A stretch of 64,000 nt of DNA from Auricularia sp. M13. Lineage: Eukaryota > Basidiomycota > Agaricomycetes > Auriculariales > Auriculariaceae. Within the stretch, counting starts at the first letter, position 1. Each line of letters begins with the position of its first letter. Of this stretch, positions 5,928 to 39,642 are shown in pieces. A program made the position numbers and the translations under genes. Location: assembly GCA_037042915.1 (NCBI GenBank), contig CM073195.1:3968001-4032000 (forward strand). The letters run 5' to 3'. The notes beneath the pieces were generated by a model. The model searched no databases and was not told the origin of the DNA. It was given only the letters and a program-made list of their open reading frames with translations.

Positions 5928-8900
5928 TTACAGACATTGGGAGTAGTCTGAAAGACTGTCAGCGAAAGGAATCGAGGAATGATAGAGCAACTCACAATCG
6001 TTGGACTTGACGCAAGTGTACGGGCACGCGCACACCTTGCCACCAGTCCAGCCCTGGCCACCGCACTGGCCGTAGTGAGCAACAGCACTAGATGCCGATG
6101 AGCACGTCGCGGTCGAGCCGGCCGCAGTCGTAGTCGTAGTGGTCGAGGTTGACGCGGGCGCAGTGCCGTAGCGCGAGTAGTATGCGGAGGATGATTGGTT
6201 GGGAATGCACTGGCTCAGGTACTCGGAGATCCACTGGCAGTAGAACCCATCGACGCAGCAAGTCGAGCCGCCCCAGTTTTGCCCGCCGCACTGCGACCAC
6301 TGCGTGATGGGGTTGGTGCATGTGCCAGTCGAAGACGAGCCGGATGCCGTTGTGGTCATCGTGGCGGTTGTCGAGCGCGACGTAGTCGAGGATGTCATGG
6401 TCGTCGTCGTGGAGGTTGTCGTGCTCGTCGTAGCGGTCGTTGTGGACGTGGAGGTCGAGCTGCTCGTAGTTGTCGAAGTCGAGGTCGAGGTCGAGGCAGG
6501 CGCCGTTCCGTAGCGAGAGTAGAAAGCCGACGACGATTGATTGGGAATGCATTGGCTCAGATACTCGGAAATCCACTGGCAGTAGTATCCGTCGACGCAG
6601 CAAGTCGAGCCGCCCCAGTTCTGACCGCCGCACTGCGACCATTGCGTGATAGGATTCGTGCAGCTGCCGCTCGAGCCGGTGGAAGACGAGCCGCTCGTGG
6701 TGGTCGTAGTCGTTGCAGCGGTACCTGGCACGCACTGCGAGTAATATTGGTCCGAGAAGCGGCAGTAGTATCCGCTCGTGCAAGTCGTAGGACCGCTCCA
6801 GTTGACGCCCTGGAAGAGTTGTGAGTTCACGGCAAGCAGAGACAAAGTTAGGCACGTACTCCGCACTGGCCATATGCAGAAGCCGGCTGCGTCGCAGTGG
6901 AGCCGGAAGAAGTGGTCGTCGTCGTCGTAGTTGTCGTGCTGGTCGAGGTCGGCGTCGTACTAGCGCTGGTGCTCGTGGAGGTGGACGTGCTCGACGACGT
7001 GCTTGCGCTGGTGCTTGTCGAAGTAGTCGCGCTGGTAGTAGTGCTCGTCGAGGCAGTCGTGCTGGTGCTCGTAGCGCTGCTCGTGGTGCTCGTGGAGGTG
7101 CTCGTGCTCGTAGACGTGCTGGTAGATGTCGACGTCGAAGTGCTAGTGCTAGTGCTGGTGCTCGTCTCCGTGCTGGTGCTCGCCTCCGTACTGGTGGCCG
7201 TGGCCGAGTCAGTCGAGCTGCTCGTGGTCGGCAGCTCCGTGATCTCCGTCGTAGCAGGGACGAGCGCAGCGTTCTTCGTGTACAGCTGCGTGCGCCACCC
7301 CGCACCGCACATCAGCGCCTCGTCCCCAGTGCACACCTTGTCGCACTCGCTCGTCGGGCGCAGGACAGGCGTCCACGCGAACGCGTCACCGCACGAGCAC
7401 TCGCCGCCGTACTCGACGCCGGAGATGCTGAAGCCCTTGGCGTCGCACAGCTGCGCGCAGCGCGCAGGCGTGTTGTCGCTGAGCGTGTTGAAGTCCGGCA
7501 GGATGTGGGACGCGTTATCTTCGGCGCAAGCGTAGGCCATCGTCCAGCCTTCCGGCATCGCGGAAGGGTCGAGCGTGGGCGCAGGCGTCGCCGAGGAGGT
7601 AGTGGTAGTCGCGGTCGAAGTGTGGACGACGTCGACGAGCTGGAGGTCACCGGCGCGCCGACAATCTGGATACGCCAGCCAGCACCGCAGGTGTCGCCGT
7701 TATCGCCAGCGCAGAGCATGTTGCACTCCGAAGCCGGGCGGTCGACAGGCTCGATGTTGTACGACGACCCACAGTAACACTCGCGCCCGTACTCAGTGCC
7801 AGACATCGTAAAACCTTTGGAGTCGCACAGCGCAGCGCATGTTGAGGCGTGTTGGTGCCGTCGAGGTAGTTGACTTGCGTCAGAACACGCGCCGCAGAGT
7901 CCACCGCGCACGCGTGCAGGACCGACCAACCAGCGGGGAACGTCGCAGTAGGCGCAGCAGTGGTGGTAGTCGCAGTAGCCGACGCCTCAGGCACGCCGAC
8001 AATCTGAATGCGCCAGCCCGCACCGCAGGTGTCCGAAGAGTCGCCGCTGCACGGCATGTTGCACTCCGACGCTGGGCGGTCGACGGCAGGGAAGTTGTAC
8101 GACGAGCCGCAGTAGCACTCGCGGCCGTACTCGGTGCCAGACATGGTGAAGCCCTTGGAATTGCAGAACGCGGCGCAGACTGGCGGCGTGTTGTCCGTGA
8201 GGTAGTTGGTGTTCGTCAAGATGCGTGCCGCACTATCCACGGCGCAGGCATGCAGAACGCTCCAGCCAGCCGGGAAGGTGCTGGCGCTAGCGGAAGACGT
8301 GGAAGTGGCCGTCGTGAGCGTCGTAGTACCCGAGGAAATGAGCGACGGATTCTGCGGCGATACGTTGGAAGGAAGTTCTGTGAGGAAGGAACGCCGCACG
8401 TACCGAGTACAGCTGCGCGGCCCAAGGACCACCACATTCCTGCGTCGAGTCCCCGGAGCATTCCATGTAGCAGTCCGAGACAGGGCGGGGCGTGATGGAG
8501 TTGGCGAGGTTGCTGCCGCAGTAGCATTCGCGACCGTATTCGACAGCGGCGAAGGCAAAGCCCTCGCTTGCGCAGAGACTCGCGCAGTTATTAGGCGTGT
8601 TTTCCGTGAGGTAGTTGACCTGGGTGTCCGTGAAGAGACGCGCAGCATTGTCAAGAGCGCAGTCTGCTGCTGTCGACCAACCGGAGGGGAGCGTCGACGT
8701 CGGAGTGGTCGACGCTTCCGTTGTGTACAACGAAATGCGCCAGCCTGCGCCACAGTTCTGCGTAGAATCGCCGGAGCAAGGCTGGACGACAAGTAAGAAT
8801 ATGTTAACGCGGGCAGTTGATCGTTAGCTGACCATATTGCACGACGACACTGGAGCAGACTCGAGGTTCTTATCGACGGCTCTGCCACACCAGCCTGTCG

Positions 8901-9178: not shown

Positions 9179-11161
9179 GACGGGTGTAATTTCTTTGTTG
9201 AGATTGCAGACTTCACGTCGAGGCTTATCATCCCTTCGCGCAACGGGATTTTCGGACGGACCAGGAGTGCATCGCTGCGCGGACCGCGCGGGATCGTCGC
9301 GTTCGTCGATCACGCAGCTGGCTCGAATCCCAATCCTCGATCGGAAAATCCAGATGCGAGCCATGGCCTTGGTATCAGAGAAAAGAGCCGAAGAGCATGA
9401 CGGGTGCGTCTAGCGTGTAAGGGGAGCCCCAGCCTGGCCCGAGCCAGAAGTCATCGAAATATTCTATGAACAAGCCCAGGCAATATGTCGTCTACCCTGC
9501 GCTGCGCAGACATCGAGCAGGATTGTCCTTGAAAGTTAACCGTTGGCATGTTGACACCAGGACGTGGCATGGGCACGCATGTAGCTGAGGCCAACATTCC
9601 GGAAGGCAGGATAAAGTGGTTCGGCGGAACTTGAATCGCGTCGCGTCTCTTCCTCCCGCCTTGCACTCGGAAACATTTGCCTGCTTTTCCGCTCCTTCGC
9701 TATCGAGATGATCTCGCCACATTATACGCAAATGCGCTTTCCGTTAATGTCGCCTTAATTTCCCGGGCTTTTGAGGTTCACTTAGTAACCGTAGATTGTA
9801 CCCTTGCGCGTCATTTGGATCTGTCTGCCGCACCCTGTCCCATTCACCCACCACCCAACGCATAAAAAGGACCTCATTAAAGCGAAAGACAATGCGGCTA
9901 CATATTGCCAATGTCCATCTGGTCGAGTCGAATGAGCACAAGGTTGACTCTGCGACATTTAGACCTCACCCCTAGACCCCACCGATGGGTACGCTTCCAG
10001 TCGCCAGCCATAGCTCAACTACAGTAGCACTGGCGCTCCTCTGCCGTATACTTATGCACCGCTTAGGCTGAGCAGAAACTTTGCGACACACCTCGTTTAC
10101 TCGTTATACGGGCTCGACTCCGCTACCACCTTCGTTGGAAGAATAGCCGTCCTATCAGGAGAATCGTGAGCCCAACTTCGCTTTCAAATGAAAACCGGAG
10201 AGCATGCACTGACCAACCCTATCATTACAAAAGACACTCCTCCTCGAAGTGCCGAGTTCTTCGCATTGCCTAGCCAGTCAGTCGCGTTGCTCGTTTATCT
10301 ACAAAGTCGTGAGTAAAGTGTCCGGCTGGGAAATATCCGATATTGATACAGGGGACGAGGAAGCCAGATGGGGAAAACGGTGAAATGTGGATCAATGTGG
10401 ACGATGGGTTCTATACTGATACATGCGGCGGGGAAAGGGAACGGTTGCGAGATGAGATAAAAGAGGAATGAAAGTGACGAGTTCATGTGAGATTAGAAGA
10501 GGTACGTAGCTTATAATTATGTTCTCCACCGGCCTGAGATCCTCCATCATTACGACCAGTCGACCCCGGCGCCGTGGCGGGTACCGCGGGAGGAGGCGGG
10601 GACCGCTTCCGTTTCAGACCTGGGTCACGGTTCTCGCCTCCGTCCTTGCCTCTGCCCATGGAAGCCATACCTCCCGCTGCATCGCTCACGGTGGGAGTGG
10701 ACGAGGACGACATGATGGAGAATGAGGCGCACTCTCGCATTCGCCTTCTCTTAAATCTGTAAACGAGTTGCATATCATCTCCAAGTAGCGCAATCGCTGC
10801 TCATTGTAGCTGCCTTCTGGCAACGGTAATCGGCCTGTTGCGCCGCCACGCTGGCCATCGCAATTGTAACCTTCCGGTAAGAAGGAATTTGGACGTCTAT
10901 GCGCGAAGTAAGCAGGTGATGTTTAGCTCCAGTTGGCCTTACCTATTGTGACATTGTGCAATAAGCACACTGCGATTGTGTGCGGCCTCAACAGTCACCA
11001 TTGGGAATCGTCAGTGCAAGGAGAATGAAATATATTTCCGATATCATGGGATGATCATTGAAAGTGCAGCTTGGGCGACTGTGATTGGGCTCTGAATCGA
11101 TTTCTCGGCATTTGCCGATTACTAACTTGTGGCTTTCCTCGCATGGCAACGGTCCAGCGCC
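9179..11161. other. Intergenic, no firm gene
   Basis: Only one weak candidate is seen. This is a 76-codon frame on the minus strand from 10713 (MSSSSTPTVSDAAGG...), rich in Pro, Gly and charged residues, with no recognisable domain. Nothing else is supported. Confidence 0.4.
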
Positions 11162-11537
11162 CAAGGGGCATCCCGGATTGCGGATGGTGATTCCATGTCA
11201 CCAACCTGGCCCCGTGGGAAAATCAAATGTTTGGCTTTCAAGCCGGCGAAGCGCCCACCGGCGCCTCGCTGCGAGGACTGCACGGAAGCTCGAACACAAG
11301 GCCGTTCAGTACCAGACTCAACTATGCCGCTGATTTCACTATAATTCAGCTTTTTGTGTTGGTTCTGATGCAGACCGAACCGTTCTGAAGCAGTGAGTCG
11401 CGATGTCCAATGTAACGGCTCGGTATTCCGAGACTCGACCGGCTGCCGAAAAGGTCGGCTTGATGGCCGGGCACTGATTTCCCACGGGGCCAGGTTGGTG
11501 ACATGGAATCACCATCCGCAATCCGGGATGCCCCTTG
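11162..11537. repeat. 60-nt inverted repeat spanning an F-box start codon
   Basis: Positions 11162-11221 and 11478-11537 are reverse complements over 60 nt, with a 256-nt spacer. The right arm contains the ATG (11503) and first codons of the F-box gene, so the left arm is an inverted copy of that gene's 5' end. Homology stops abruptly outside the arms. Confidence 0.85.
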
Positions 11538-12921
11538 CCAGCGCCTTCCGATCGAGTTGATCACCGGGATATTCGACTTCCTTGAATTCAATGACCTCGT
11601 TGTGTCTGGCTGGGTGTGCCATCACTGGAGGCGCCTCGCCCGGAATCATCTGAACTTCTGGAGCGATATTCGCATCGATTGCCTAAGCCCTGCAGCACTA
11701 TTTTGGGCACGCCAGCGGCTCATATGGACCGACAAAAGACCTTTCCGCCTGGTGGTCGACTTCCAAGAACGCCATGTTCAGGTCGAACGGGAGCTACTTG
11801 ACCTTGTCTGCGCTACTTTGGGGACCGTCCGCGAGCTCCGAATCACTCTGGATTCTTTCTATGCTATCAGCATCTACGAAACTCTCCTGAATCGAGCTCA
11901 AAACCTCGAGAAGTTCAGCCTTTGTCTCGTACTGGGCCCCCAGGGCGAGCTGTTTGAACTTCAGGACCTACCGCTTCCGAGCGGCATTTTCGGCCGGACC
12001 TGCGACCGCCTGCGGAGCGTTTCCTTACAGAACGTAATTCTTACACATATTACGCCTATTACGGCGTTCAGCGCTGTGGAGATGGTTGCCATTACGTTCG
12101 GCGAGTCTGTCCGCTACCAGTTCCCAGTCTGGCTCTACGACTACTTCCCTGCCATGACTTGGCTCTCTTTATCTTCCGGAACCATCTTATTCAATGCAGA
12201 GTCACCGGTTTCCCTCTTAAACAGGTTCTCTCGGTTGAGTTATCTCGATCTGAGCTTCAGTGGCAGTTGCACTGTTGACGTATTCAGCCACATCGCCACG
12301 ACGAATATCCCGGAGATAACTGTCACCAACCCGAATGACGATGCCGTGTATGCTGCTCTGGGCCCGCTTCGCAGTCCATTTCACATGTTTTGTCAGACCG
12401 TCAGCTCACTCAACTGCGAAGAGCTGAACATCGCCATCTGGTCCTCGTCCACAAATCACTTGCGACATTTCGCCGAAAATCCTCAGAACTACGAGCCTGG
12501 AAGCGATAATGGTCCACTTACTCTCTTTGAGAACGAAGAATTTGCAGAACAAATCAGTTCTCTGACGATCTCAAGCTCGATTTGGTCGACCATAGTGCCT
12601 TTCCTGCCGTCGTATACAATTCTCACCGATCTCCGCCTCTGGATCATGGAATGGAGCTACCTGCCCCTGTCTCTGCCACAGGAACCACTCAGGCTTCCCT
12701 CTCTACATACGTTGCTATTTGAAGCAGTCCGCGGTGAAGTGCATATCGCTGCGGGCGAATTGGTCACATTTTTGGAGCGGACCTCGTCGAACCGTGTACA
12801 CTTGCGTTTGTGGCGCATCAAGCTAGTCGGGAATATAGACGAGCTGCAAGATCGCACACTGTCGGTCTCCCACAACTATCCGAACGAACTGGGTCGATTT
12901 CGCATACTACGACAACGTTAG
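11503..12921 (+). CDS. F-box protein (472 aa)
   Basis: A single-exon gene. An N-terminal F-box covers about residues 14-58 (LPIELITGIFDFLEFNDL, then CHHWRRLARNHLNFW). A leucine-rich, irregular C-terminal part follows, as in agaricomycete F-box/LRR-like proteins. The expected role is substrate receptor of an SCF ubiquitin ligase, with the F-box contacting Skp1 and the tail binding an unknown target. The start lies inside the right arm of a 60-nt inverted repeat. The gene converges on a second F-box gene about 120 bp downstream. Confidence 0.85.
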   Translation: MESPSAIRDAPCQRLPIELITGIFDFLEFNDLVVSGWVCHHWRRLARNHLNFWSDIRIDCLSPAALFWARQRLIWTDKRPFRLVVDFQERHVQVERELLDLVCATLGTVRELRITLDSFYAISIYETLLNRAQNLEKFSLCLVLGPQGELFELQDLPLPSGIFGRTCDRLRSVSLQNVILTHITPITAFSAVEMVAITFGESVRYQFPVWLYDYFPAMTWLSLSSGTILFNAESPVSLLNRFSRLSYLDLSFSGSCTVDVFSHIATTNIPEITVTNPNDDAVYAALGPLRSPFHMFCQTVSSLNCEELNIAIWSSSTNHLRHFAENPQNYEPGSDNGPLTLFENEEFAEQISSLTISSSIWSTIVPFLPSYTILTDLRLWIMEWSYLPLSLPQEPLRLPSLHTLLFEAVRGEVHIAAGELVTFLERTSSNRVHLRLWRIKLVGNIDELQDRTLSVSHNYPNELGRFRILRQR

Positions 12922-29375: not shown

Positions 29376-30532
29376 ATGCCGTCCTACGCCGTCGTTGGTG
29401 CCTCCCGCGGAATCGGGGTCAGTTTCAACTTTAACTCCTCACCATCACGGTCCCCGTCTTCAGACAATCGCGGAATCGGTAAACTGATGATCTTTTGATT
29501 TTAGGCCGCATTCGTCGACGCCCTCTCCAGCAAGCCGGAGAACACCGTCTTCGCCGTCGCGCGCAACCCGGACGGCGCGCCAGACCTGCAGAAGCTCAAG
29601 GATAGGAAGAACGTGCATCTCGTCAAGGGCGACTTGACGGATGCCGCGTCGCTCCAGGTACGCCTTCACTTCGAGAGGAGAGTCAGTGGTTATGTAGGGA
29701 GATTGACACGGGGCTTCATATGTAGGCTGCTGCGGACGCCGTGGCGAAGGTAACGGGCGGCTCGCTCGACGTGCTGATCAACAACGGCGCGATCCAGGGC
29801 AAGGCGTGGACCGCCATTGACGAGTTGTGCGTGTCTCCGCCGCCCGTCCCATCTCATCTCATCTCATCTCGCCGCGCACGCAGCCCGACGCCCGAGGACC
29901 TCGTGCGCGACTTCCGGAGCACGTTCGACACGAACGTCCTCGGCGTGGTCCTCTCGACGAACGCGTTCCTGCCGCTCCTGCGCAAGGGCCAGCTGAAGAA
30001 GGTGCTCAACGTGAGCTCGGGCATCGGCGATGCCGGGAACGTGCTCCAGACCGGGCATCTGTACGCCCCCGCGTACTGTGTCTCGAAGGCCGCGCTCGAG
30101 ATGGTCGGCGTCAAATACGCCGGTGCGTCCGTGCTCTTATGCTGGCATTTCCTTGGCTGAGGCTGATGCATTATGATGGGTTTCAAAGTGAAGTATAAAA
30201 ACGAGGGTTTCGCATTCCTGACGATCTGCCCGGGGATTGTGAAGACGGACATGGGCGCGCCGCCGGGTACGCGTCGCATCCTCTTTCCCTCCTCCTTTCT
30301 CACCTACTCACTCTAATTTTGTCTCTTACCGAACCTATTAGAGGATCCGGAGGACCAAGCAAAGCTGCAAGCCATGATGGCCAGCTTCGCGGAGCAGATC
30401 CCGCCAAACTGGAAGGGGCCCATGGAGCCCGCGGAGTCCGTCAGCGCGATGCTCGCCGTCCTCGACCGCTGGACGCCGGAGGACTCGGGCAAGTTCGTGA
30501 GCCATAAGGGCAATCGCACCGAGTGGCTGTAG
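29376..30532 (+). CDS. Short-chain dehydrogenase/reductase (SDR copy 1)
   Basis: Six exons (29376-29417, 29505-29657, 29726-29826, 29884-30122, 30189-30266, 30342-30532) give 267 residues. The Rossmann motif GASRGIG is at 8-14. The usual NNAG is NNGA (84-87). The catalytic set is Ser at about 143-144, Tyr163 and Lys167 in AYCVSKAALEM. The segment ICPGIVKTDM after the active site is typical of C-factor-like SDRs. It should be a soluble NAD(P)-dependent oxidoreductase; its substrate is unknown. It is intact and the most upstream of four copies in the window, with the same exon phases as SDR2 and SDR4. Confidence 0.9.
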
Positions 30533-30971
30533 AGGATCTTGGAAGAATCGAATGCCTTGCTTTCCTGTAATGTACCATTCGGACTTGTCTTTTCCGAGCT
30601 CGCGAATATCAATTCCCCTTGAATTTGACTTTGCGCGCAGGTCACATGACCTGTTAAGTTGTGAGAGTGATTGTTGAGTGTTGAGTACCTACAGTACGTT
30701 GAGTTAGCTGCGCAACGGCTAAAAACAGCGTTATATCCGTTGAAACACCGAGCTGTCGGCCCAAATCGCGGAGAGCTCTCTTCGCTTGCCTGCGAGCGCA
30801 GCTGAGCAAAACCACGGCGGCGCGTTTTCACCAGGGTCAGATGTTGGCCATGGACGTCGTTCCGGTCCATAGACGACTGGTCAAATATTCGAAGGCTTTC
30901 GACCGTATGCCTGTCGTGTTTTTTCTACATCAACCTGAGGGCCAGAAGCGAAAGTGTCTGATTCGCGTTAG
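30533..30971. other. Intergenic, SDR1 3' flank
   Basis: The stretch lies between SDR1 and a long inverted repeat. No gene was recognised. Confidence 0.4.
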
Positions 30972-31690
30972 CTAAGGTAGACGACACGGAAACTCAGCAA
31001 ACCTACCAAATGCGGCAAGTGACGGCTGTCAGACCGCATTTTGAGGATTTCCCCTCCTTGTAGACACACTACAGAAAATTGGCTTCCAACAATCTTTTTG
31101 CGCAGCCCGTCGGATTCTGAAAGTGTAAGTATCAATGCAAACGGTGCTCGGGCTGTGCTGTTATCTTTTGTTTTGGTCCTGATCACTGCACTCGGGTGAG
31201 AGAACCATTGGGGCACACCAGAGGTCCCAAAACAGTATCTAAACGTATTCTGTACATCTATAAGTACCATTGACTCTTCCTGGCTCGAAATAATCCAGAG
31301 AGTCGTGTTCTTTCACTCCTCAAAACCGACTCTCACAAAATGGCAGGTCTTTTCACACATCCTCTGGATTATTTCGAGCCAGGAAGAGTCAATGGTACTT
31401 ATAGATGTACAGAATACGTTTAGATACTGTTTTGGGACCTCTGGTGTGCCCCAATGGTTCTCTCACCCGAGTGCAGTGATCAGGACCAAAACAAAAGATA
31501 ACAGCACAGCCCGAGCACCGTTTGCATTGATACTTACACTTTCAGAATCCGACGGGCTGCGCAAAAAGATTGTTGGAAGCCAATTTTCTGTAGTGTGTCT
31601 ACAAGGAGGGGAAATCCTCAAAATGCGGTCTGACAGCCGTCACTTGCCGCATTTGGTAGGTTTGCTGAGTTTCCGTGTCGTCTACCTTAG
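30972..31690. repeat. Long near-perfect palindrome, 329-bp arms, 61-nt loop
   Basis: The left arm 30972-31300 and right arm 31362-31690 are reverse complements. The segments compared base by base showed no mismatch, and both arms encode the same 100-residue translation in opposite directions. The spacer is 31301-31361. Homology ends sharply on both sides. The encoded frame resembles no known protein. Confidence 0.92.
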
Positions 31691-32145
31691 TGCAAAAAGA
31701 CGCCGTTAAGTCCGTTACGACCGGCCCCTGCCGCGAAAATGCTTGCTTGAAAACCGCTTCGAGCAACAGCAACTCAACAGGCCTCCCTGACCTGTGGCTC
31801 GACTACCGCGACGGTTGTTTGCCTTTCCAGATCTTGATCTTTGACTGCGCTTCCACCCGTGACATGGGCCACTTGGAAGAATCAACCGTTCTTCCGACCG
31901 TAAGCTCCGCATGCCTTGCCTCGCAGATGCACGCGCTACAGCTCATAAGCAAAACTGCAGGATGAAATAGCGTCAGTGACCGTGCCAGATCTAGTCATAG
32001 ATGAGAAGGGCAATCCATTCCAGCGCCATTCACGCGCAGCGGCAGGACTCCAGCCATGGACTTCGTGCACGTGTATCCGCTCGCATTCGAGAGCTCCAGA
32101 GCGCGATACCCTGCGCTCTAACGACTAGATGGCGCGCCTCCACGT
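31691..32145. other. Intergenic
   Basis: No gene or repeat was recognised between the palindrome and the frame at 32146. Confidence 0.4.
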
Positions 32146-33021: not shown

Positions 33022-33066
33022 TCAATGGATCACGTCGCATCGGCCGATTTCTCCTTGAGGGATTCG

Positions 33067-33156
33067 GAGGAGCTATGTCTACGAATCAGCATGCTGTCTT
33101 CCGCAATTTCAGAGGAGCTATGTCTACGAATCAGCATGCTGTCTTCCGCAATTCCC
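33067..33156 (+). repeat. Tandem duplication, 45-bp unit, two copies
   Basis: Units 33067-33111 and 33112-33156 are almost identical, diverging only in the last few bases. This is a simple local duplication in non-coding DNA. Confidence 0.85.
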
Positions 33157-33536: not shown

Positions 33537-34788
33537 ATGCCGTCTTACGTTGTCGCTGGCGCCTCTCGCGGAATAGGAGTCAGTCGGCTTGTTTCTCTCT
33601 CTCTTTATTCTGCCTCGTATTCATCTTAATTCAACTCATAGGCCGCATTCGTCGAGAACCTCTCCAGCAAGCCGGAGAACACTGTCTTCGCCCTGGCGCG
33701 CAACCCGGATGGCTCTCCGGACCTGCAGAAGTTGAAGGAACGGCCCAATGTGCACCTCGTCAAGGGCGATCTTACGGATCCCGCATCGCTGAAGGTACGC
33801 TTAGCTCGACTTCAGAGACGTGAATGATTGGAAAAAACGATAATATGCTTACAGGCCGCAGCGGACGCCGTGGCGAAGGTGACCGGCGGTACGCTTGATG
33901 TTCTGATCAACAACGGCGCCGTTCCGGGGATTGCGTGGAAGGCTATTGACGAGTTGTGCGTATCTTGCCGCAATGTTGCTTCCTCTGCCTTTTTGAGTCC
34001 CTTCTTCCCTCTCCCTTCTCCGCTCCCGCTCAGTCCGATTTCGTCTCCCTATCACCCTTGTCCAGCACACAACTTGATGCCTTTCATCTCTCACACTACA
34101 ACGCTCTGTTTCTCACGCCTTCTGAACCAGCCCGACACCCGAGGACCTCGTGAGCGACTTCCGGAGCACATTCGACACCAACGTCATCGGCGTAATCCTC
34201 TCGACCAACGCGTTCCTGCCGCTCTTGCGCAAGGGCCAGCTGAAGAAAGTGCTCACACTGAGCTCATTGGCTGGTGACGCCGCGTCAGTGCTCGCGGGTG
34301 GGCACATGTATTACCCAGCCTACTGCGTCTCGAAGGCCGCGCTCGAGATGGTCGGCGTCAAGTACGCTGGTGCGTCTCCTCTTCAGGCAGCTGATTGTGC
34401 GTGTCTTCTCTGACGCCGCTCTCAGTCAAGTATAAAGACGAAGGATTCACGTTCCTCACGATCTGCCCGGGTATGGTTAAGTCGGATGGCATGGCCGCCC
34501 CACCGCGTACGTCCTCTCCCTCATCGTCTCATCTTCTCACCTTCTGTTCCGCCTGTATTTTTACGGCTTACTTGCTGACCGGGCATCTCACCGTCAGAGG
34601 ATCCGGAGGACCAAGCGAAGCTGCAGCGCATGGTAGCCGGCTTCGCCTCGTTCATGCCGCCGGACTGGAAAGGACCGATGCCGCCCGCGGAGTCCGTCAG
34701 TGCCATGCTGTCCGTCCTCGACAGGTGGACCCCGGAGGAGTCGGGTAAGTTCGTCAGCCACAAGGGCAATCGCACCGAGTGGTTGTGA
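33537..34788 (+). CDS. Short-chain dehydrogenase/reductase (SDR copy 2)
   Basis: Six exons (33537-33578, 33642-33794, 33855-33955, 34131-34369, 34426-34506, 34598-34788) give 268 residues. It is the closest relative of SDR1, with the same exon sizes for the first four exons and the same motifs: GASRGIG, NNGA, and YCVSKAALEM with catalytic Tyr and Lys. It ends EEGKF-like as ESGKFVSHKGNRTEWL, identical to SDR1 from FVSHK onward. Intron 3 is 175 nt, longer than in SDR1. It is intact; substrate unknown. Similar coding sequence and a shared promoter element point to tandem duplication. Confidence 0.9.
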
Positions 34789-38079: not shown

Positions 38080-39642
38080 AACAGCGACAACACGCCCGCG
38101 CGCTGCCGCTGAGCGCAGCTGTGCGACGCCAAGGGGTTCAGCATCTCTGATGTCGAGTACGGCGGCGAGTGCTCGTGCGGTGACGCGTTCGCGTGGCCGC
38201 CCGTGCTGCGCCCGACGAGCGCGTGCGACATGGCGTGCGCGAGCGATGCAGCGCTGATGTGCGGTGCGGAATGGCGCACGCGGCTGTACACGAAGAACGC
38301 GGCGTTTGTCCCTGCAACGACGGACATTACGGATCTGGCGACCACAAGCGGCTCAACTGACTCGGCTACGGCGACCAGCACGGAGACGAGCACCAGCACT
38401 AGCATTAACGCTTCGACGTCGACGTCTACGAGCATGTCTACGAGCACGAGCACGTCCACGAGCACCACGAGCAGCGCTACAAGCACCAGCACGACTTCCT
38501 CGACGAGCACTACTACTAGCGCGACTACTTCGACGGGCACCAGCGCGAGGACGTCGTCGAGCACGTCTACCTCCACATCGACGTCCATGACCGCGAGCAC
38601 CAGCACTAGCACGACGCCGACCTCGACAAGCACGAGCACGACAACTACGACGACGACGACCACTTCTTCCGGCTCTACTGCGACGCAGCCGGCTTCGGCG
38701 TACGGCCAGTGCGGAGTACGTGCCTAACTTTGTCTCTGCTTGCTGTGTACTCACAACTCATCCAGGGCATCAACTGGAGCGGTCCTACGACTTGCACGAG
38801 CGGATACTACTGCCGCTTCTCGGACCAGTATTACTCGCAGTGCGTGCCAGGTACCGCTGCAACGACTACGACCACCACGAGCGGCTCGTCTTCCACCGGC
38901 TCGAGCGGCAGCTGCACGAATCCTATCACGCAATGGTCGCAGTGCGGCGGTCAGAACTGGGGCGGCTCGACTTGCTGCGTCGACGGATACTAGTGCCAGT
39001 GGATTTCCGAGTACCTGAGCCAGTGCATTCCCAACCAATCTTCTTCCGCTTATTACTCGCGCTACGGAACGGCGCCTGCCTCGACCTCGACTTCGGCAAC
39101 TACGAGCAGCTCGACCTCCACGTCCACAACGACCGCTACGACGAGCACGACGACTTCCACTACGATGACGACGTCTTCGACTACGTCGCGCTCGACGACC
39201 GCCACGACGACTACAACTGCATCCGGCTCATCTTCGACGGGCTCCTGCACCTATCCCATCATGCAGTGGTCGCCGTGCGGCGGCCAGAACTGGGGTGGCT
39301 CGACTTGCTGTGTCGACGGCTTCTACTGCCAGTGAATCTCCGAATACTTGAGCCAGTGCATCCCCAACTAATTCTCCTCCGTATACTACTCGCGCTACGG
39401 CACGGCGCCCATGTTCACCTCGACTACGACGACTATGACTGCGGTAGGCTCGACCGCGACGTGCACGTCCGCTTCTAGTGCCGTTGCTCACTCCGGTCAG
39501 TGTGGTGGTGGTCAGGGATGGACGGGCGGCAGGGTGTGCGTGTGCCCGTACACTTGCGTCAAGTCAAACGGTCGTGAGTTGACCATCACCCCTCTGTTTC
39601 CTCTTACTGACTGTCGCTCAGACTACTCTCAATGTCTCTAAA
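38080..39642 (+). pseudogene. Truncated inverted copy of the WSC-CBM1 gene
   Basis: The sequence matches the last half of the gene at 5928-9178, from mid-WSC5 (GDAFAWPPVLRPTS) through the Ser/Thr linker and all four CBM1 modules to the final YSQCL. It lies in the opposite orientation. It lacks the signal peptide and WSC1-4. In-frame stops interrupt CBM1-2 (near 38991) and CBM1-3 (near 39333 and 39368), and linker lengths differ. The intron inside CBM1-1 is retained, so the copy arose through DNA, not through a processed transcript. Confidence 0.9.

Follow-up and report, generated by a model that had tools for sequence, protein, structure and literature searches.

Perfect Palindrome Between Two SDR Genes

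Which process placed a perfect palindrome between two SDR genes of Auricularia sp. M13, and how have its arms stayed identical? Instability would be expected of a long perfect palindrome, yet foldback transposons retain such structures. The palindrome lies in a stretch of 64,000 nt (C3:3968001-4032000; hereafter the window) of a 52.1-Mb genome in 14 contigs. An inverted-repeat scan identified a left arm at 30972-31300 (forward strand) and a right arm at 31362-31690 (reverse strand), each of 329 nt as found and 100% complementary, separated by an asymmetric loop of 61 nt (31301-31361, forward strand), exactly as the original prediction had described. A chance origin is excluded for a 329-nt perfect inverted match; the next best inverted pair within 5 kb around it is 38 nt long and 71% identical. 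The predicted position between two SDR genes is also supported: the exon at 29912-30121, left of the palindrome, matches adh_short, and blocks of 29502-30530 are repeated at 33639-34786 with 80-91% identity. F-box and WSC are among the domain matches. Two other repeats were observed in the window: a 45-nt tandem duplication, 98% identical, at 33063-33152, and a pair of inverted segments about 31 kb apart (5988-7462 and 38107-39581) with main blocks 84-93% alike.

The arms end abruptly, and these ends are transposon ends. A TA is found one base inside each tip (30973-30974 and 31688-31689, neither assigned to a strand), and the outermost pair, a C on the left arm and a flanking G, is taken as a chance flank. 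Without this pair, the element is composed of two 328-nt arms and the 61-nt loop, and with both TAs it spans 717 nt (30973-31689, no strand).

The two arms had been noted to translate to the same 100 residues in opposite directions. This is correct as a consequence of the palindrome itself, but coding by the arms was rejected, since no protein family match passed the cut-off and no codon-position bias was found despite open frames. Six of eight arms are open from end to end, and 1.5% of shuffles of one arm contained any open frame. A Pfam scan of the two arm frames returned nothing over the curated cut-off and one weak match to DUF4400 (E 0.097). Among the variable sites of six arms from three copies, no codon-position bias was detected (12/8/16, chi-square p 0.26), and 24 of 36 fall in residue-changing codons. 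Thus, the element appears to carry no gene.

Dispersed Copies of the Element

A search of the genome with the palindrome (E <= 0.001) returned at least 16 match rows at no fewer than six places, both counts being lower bounds. Copies are named here after their contigs: c3 (the window), c10 (C10), c1 (C1), and c7 (C7). Besides c3, the full-length copies are c10 (96% identical) and c1 (95%), which are located on other contigs with different flanks, and the c7 copy is interrupted by an insert of 306 nt. Fragments of the element are present at C1:9073327 and C7:1773541; the former (locus L009, C1:9.07 Mb) retains about 144 nt of one terminus. The arms, the loop length and position, and the junctions are common to c3, c10, c1, and c7. 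Because of this, the very recent origin first suggested can apply to the insertion of c3 and not to the palindrome. The proposed search for a source copy or target recovered family copies only, and no host-gene target was found at E <= 0.001.

Two further structures were observed at these places. The c7 insert (L007 5522-5827) has ends CACTGGGAGCA/TGCTCCCAGTG with ATA on both sides, and we take it to resemble a short CACTA-type element. On the same contig, C7:1771776-1775683 (L008 3236-7143) forms a 3.9-kb palindrome with arms of 1,916 nt and three mismatches. Near its axis, one piece resembles arm positions 58-173 of the window-element family at 75-77%; the rest is unique in the genome search, a 49-nt dispersed repeat lies just outside, and an RPB2-like gene is nearby. 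Here, a larger inverted duplication may have grown from a palindromic element, or this structure may be an assembly error.

Element Ends and Target Site

Three copies (c3, c10, and c1) have the ends TA-AGGTAG...CTACCT-TA, whereas c7 lacks the TA at its left end and is altered at its right end. The c1 copy is inserted in one arm of a different repeat; eight copies of this repeat were seen over ten loci, one being c1's own. Five of the seven other aligned copies (L020, L021, L026, L033, and L034) have an empty site with a single TA, (TTCGT or TACGC)CAAG-TA-GCGG; L029 and L032 repeat two of these, and L028 and L030 do not align across the insertion site. The opposite arms of this host repeat have diverged at the insertion place. 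For c10, a relative of the host repeat on C6 reads CCAATAG-TA-CA (238 nt ungapped, 77%). A relative on C11 begins to match at the junction, is different in sequence before it, and therefore carries no information on the c10 site. Thus, the palindromic element inserts at TA, and duplication of the target is observed at two of four copies (c1 and c10). Since c3 has flanks that occur once in the genome, the window locus has no empty site, and its left and right TAs are putative target-site duplications by analogy with c1 and c10.

In the host repeat of c1, matches to two further copies are broken at query positions 251-263, about 10 nt from the c1 site, with an overlap of TA at C1:0.79 Mb and of GTAC at C1:4.94 Mb. 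This suggests other insertions, and a local insertion hot spot is possible.

These sites bear on a one-off local inverted duplication by template switching, with which the short loop and perfect arms are compatible. Such an event is extremely improbable as the origin of the palindrome, as dispersed copies have a common loop and common junctions and two of them have TA empty sites.

Classification and Source of Transposase

The window palindrome is very probably a foldback DNA transposon of the non-autonomous kind. It would have inserted at a TA between the two SDR genes, moved by a transposase encoded elsewhere, most likely of the Tc1/mariner type. A transposable element was not among the readings in the original prediction. 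Long arms make up almost the whole element around a short middle, and the copies are dispersed with a target duplication (at two of four), as in foldback elements. The Mutator-type foldback elements differ in having target duplications of 8-10 bp instead of TA and tandem repeats in their arms, and no tandem repeats were detected within 30900-31760 at a score of 30. As in miniature inverted-repeat elements (MITEs), the element is short, has inverted ends and a target duplication, and no gene was found in it. MITEs also have many copies and an identifiable parent; here, there are at least four copies plus fragments at a minimum of two places, and no parent was found, so the element is called MITE-like and not filed as a MITE.

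Tc1/mariner-type transposons typically combine inverted ends with a target duplication of TA. The same link is made for fungal elements in the cited excerpt of a study of Sclerotinia sclerotiorum (PMC4188875). In the genome, DDE_1 has 38 match rows and DDE_3 has 19 (15 over the cut-off), and both families are typical of TA-targeting transposases. The end sequence of the palindromic element, for comparison with the ends of DDE_1 and DDE_3 elements, is AGGTAGACGACACGG. A genome search with a 19-nt end motif (up to three mismatches, 26 matches) revealed no other element with the same ends, and the transposase partner is therefore inferred. Seven matches with zero or one mismatch are all in the four copies, one with two mismatches is the L009 fragment, and 18 have three mismatches, one of them being the right end of c7; the reversed control motif gave 21. 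The L009 fragment and a DDE_3 reading frame about 300 nt away were considered as the autonomous partner. The link was not accepted, as the adjacent stretch is reverse transcriptase-like; the sequence directly before the L009 arm reads by eye (VPIFVDDM) like what we take to be a copia-type reverse transcriptase. Elsewhere in the window (11154-11545) is an element of 376 nt whose 60-nt inverted ends (CAAGGGGCATCCCG...) are perfect. The 8-nt direct repeat CCAGCGCC borders it on both sides, its ends recur elsewhere, and it is presumably hAT-like.

Several known elements resemble the window element in part. Tc4 of Caenorhabditis elegans, a foldback element, resembles the window element in description: its arms are long and near-perfect, and its unique middle is short. 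Its target duplication is 3 nt (TNA) as opposed to TA. In the cited excerpts, Tetris of Drosophila virilis also has long inverted arms and no intact transposase, but differs in its 8-10-bp target duplications and the tandem repeats of its arms (PMC4079207), and Galileo also has long inverted arms, but has 7-bp flanks and arms that vary independently (PMC3573991). The Tc1/mariner-type MITEs of S. sclerotiorum (PMC4188875) and BogoMITE of Blepharisma (PMC9942856), as far as the cited portions describe them, are like the window element in being short, without transposase, with inverted ends, and tied to TA-targeting transposases. Unlike them, the window element has few copies, no end-matched parent among the search matches, and a body that is nearly all palindrome.

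Relation to RNA Silencing

Could the palindrome instead serve RNA silencing, as a locus that naturally produces hairpin RNA? Any transcript of it would have a predicted folding energy of -680.5 kcal/mol. Piwi-domain matches in the genome amount to 13 rows from about six places (11 rows over the cut-off) and indicate putative Argonaute-type genes. In addition, transcripts of fungal MITEs have been proposed to form double-stranded RNA that is processed to siRNA, according to the excerpt cited (PMC4188875). Conversely, a transposable element already explains the structure, and the genome search matched family copies only. Rfam gave no match in the window at the gathering score, and four sub-threshold miRNA matches are attributed to the hairpin. 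A dedicated silencing locus is therefore unlikely. Judging from the sequence, silencing by the palindrome is possible as a side effect and would not be needed to account for its structure.

Homogenization of the Arms Within Copies

The element can be compared arm by arm across its copies. The left and right arms differ at 0 of 328 sites in c3, 3 of 328 in c10, 18 of 328 in c1, and 11 of 316 in c7; comparisons between arms of different copies give 13 to 29 differences. The two arms of a copy are closest to each other in three of the four copies (c3, c10, and c7); the exception is c1, whose left arm has 14 differences from c3 and 18 from its own right arm. There are 53 gap-free columns with variation, and 21 of these are mirrored in every one of the four copies. 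Between c3 and c10, for instance, there are 14 differences in the left arms and 13 in the right arms, of which 12 are fully mirrored, compared with 0.55 expected to be co-located by chance. The other five pairs of copies have 7 to 20 mirrored differences against 0.85 to 2.39 by chance (P about 1e-5 or less).

The best tree of the arms groups them by copy, with support of 100 for c10, 100 for c7, and 50 for c1, and trees by side (left with left, right with right) are rejected (delta lnL 106, AU p 2.4e-8). A FastTree analysis with the L009 fragment added pairs the arms in c3, c10, and c7 and leaves those of c1 unpaired. Thus, the arms are homogenized within copies of the element, with c1 as a partial exception. 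Gene conversion between arms had been one of the original explanations for the absence of divergence, and the mirrored changes and the rejection of the by-side trees support conversion or an equivalent copying.

A by-copy tree would also be expected if the palindrome of each copy had arisen independently, out of a precursor with a single arm, and its arms matched without later copying. The L009 fragment, with its one terminus, could be a remnant of a single arm. Loop length and junctions are identical in four copies, however, and no intact single-arm copy is among the genome-search matches (E <= 0.001), which makes independent formation quite improbable.

The mirrored sites are also unevenly placed: 16 of the 21 fully mirrored sites are at arm positions 63-144, and unmirrored sites are nearer the loop (Mann-Whitney p 0.002, post hoc). 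Mirrored changes alone are found in c3, and c1 and c7 have both kinds, which fits arm copying before or at insertion and drift afterward. We infer this order from four copies, a number that suggests the timing and does not prove it. On the reading that arms drift after insertion, c3, with 0 arm differences in 328 sites, would be the youngest of the four copies.

Homogenization is not general in this genome. A 678-nt palindromic repeat near c10 (L005 2539-3216), with end-to-end matches at 11 places, served as a control, and six of its 11 copies, chosen from the closer ones, were treated in the same way as the window family. Their arms differ within a copy at 12-31 sites and between copies on the same side at 4-22 sites. 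The by-side tree equals the best tree, and the by-copy tree is rejected (delta lnL 129, AU p 5.8e-4). Thus, the control arms are not homogenized in the six copies compared and have the ordinary by-side pattern. The long inverted repeat that hosts c1 looks like this control: its own opposite end is 86% identical and the opposite ends of other close copies are 81-89% identical, whereas the same end is 94-98% identical in four copies and 77-90% identical in more distant copies.

These comparisons also argue against an assembly artefact, which the original prediction had raised. A single arm assembled twice head to head by a fold-back read error, or arms equalized by polishing, would yield two 329-nt arms without a mismatch. 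Nevertheless, arms, loop, and ends recur alike at four places, with precise empty sites at two, and the same assembly keeps the arm differences of c10, c1, and c7 and the side-specific arms of the 678-nt family. An artefact is thus very improbable.

Maintenance of Matched Arms

A foldback transposon with these properties could move and be renewed as follows. A transposase made elsewhere would bind the ends, which are identical, and carry the element to a TA. Since either strand would be able to form a stem of about 328 pairs, one arm could serve as template for the other, whether through hairpin-templated repair, gene conversion, or snap-back synthesis. A published account (PMC7999016) describes, in the part cited, hairpins, template switching, and conversion between palindrome arms. 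The copying would take place around transposition, in the lineage that is mobile or acts as source, and the arms would drift apart after insertion.

A stronger form of this model, which we offer tentatively and consider possible rather than probable, is that self-templated synthesis at or around transposition remakes the arms in full, one from the other, so that new copies start perfect and the arm difference is a clock of residence time. In the excerpt cited, a possible homogenization of arm repeats is reported within two of three complete Tetris elements (PMC4079207). The window element is of a known kind, a foldback transposon with a TA target, and has an unusually clear record of arm homogenization. 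Self-templated arm synthesis, if true, would account for the lasting perfection of such elements, and its action would not extend to all palindromic repeats of the genome. With four copies and a control from the same genome, in which the arms are homogenized in one family and not in another, the upkeep of matched foldback arms becomes testable.
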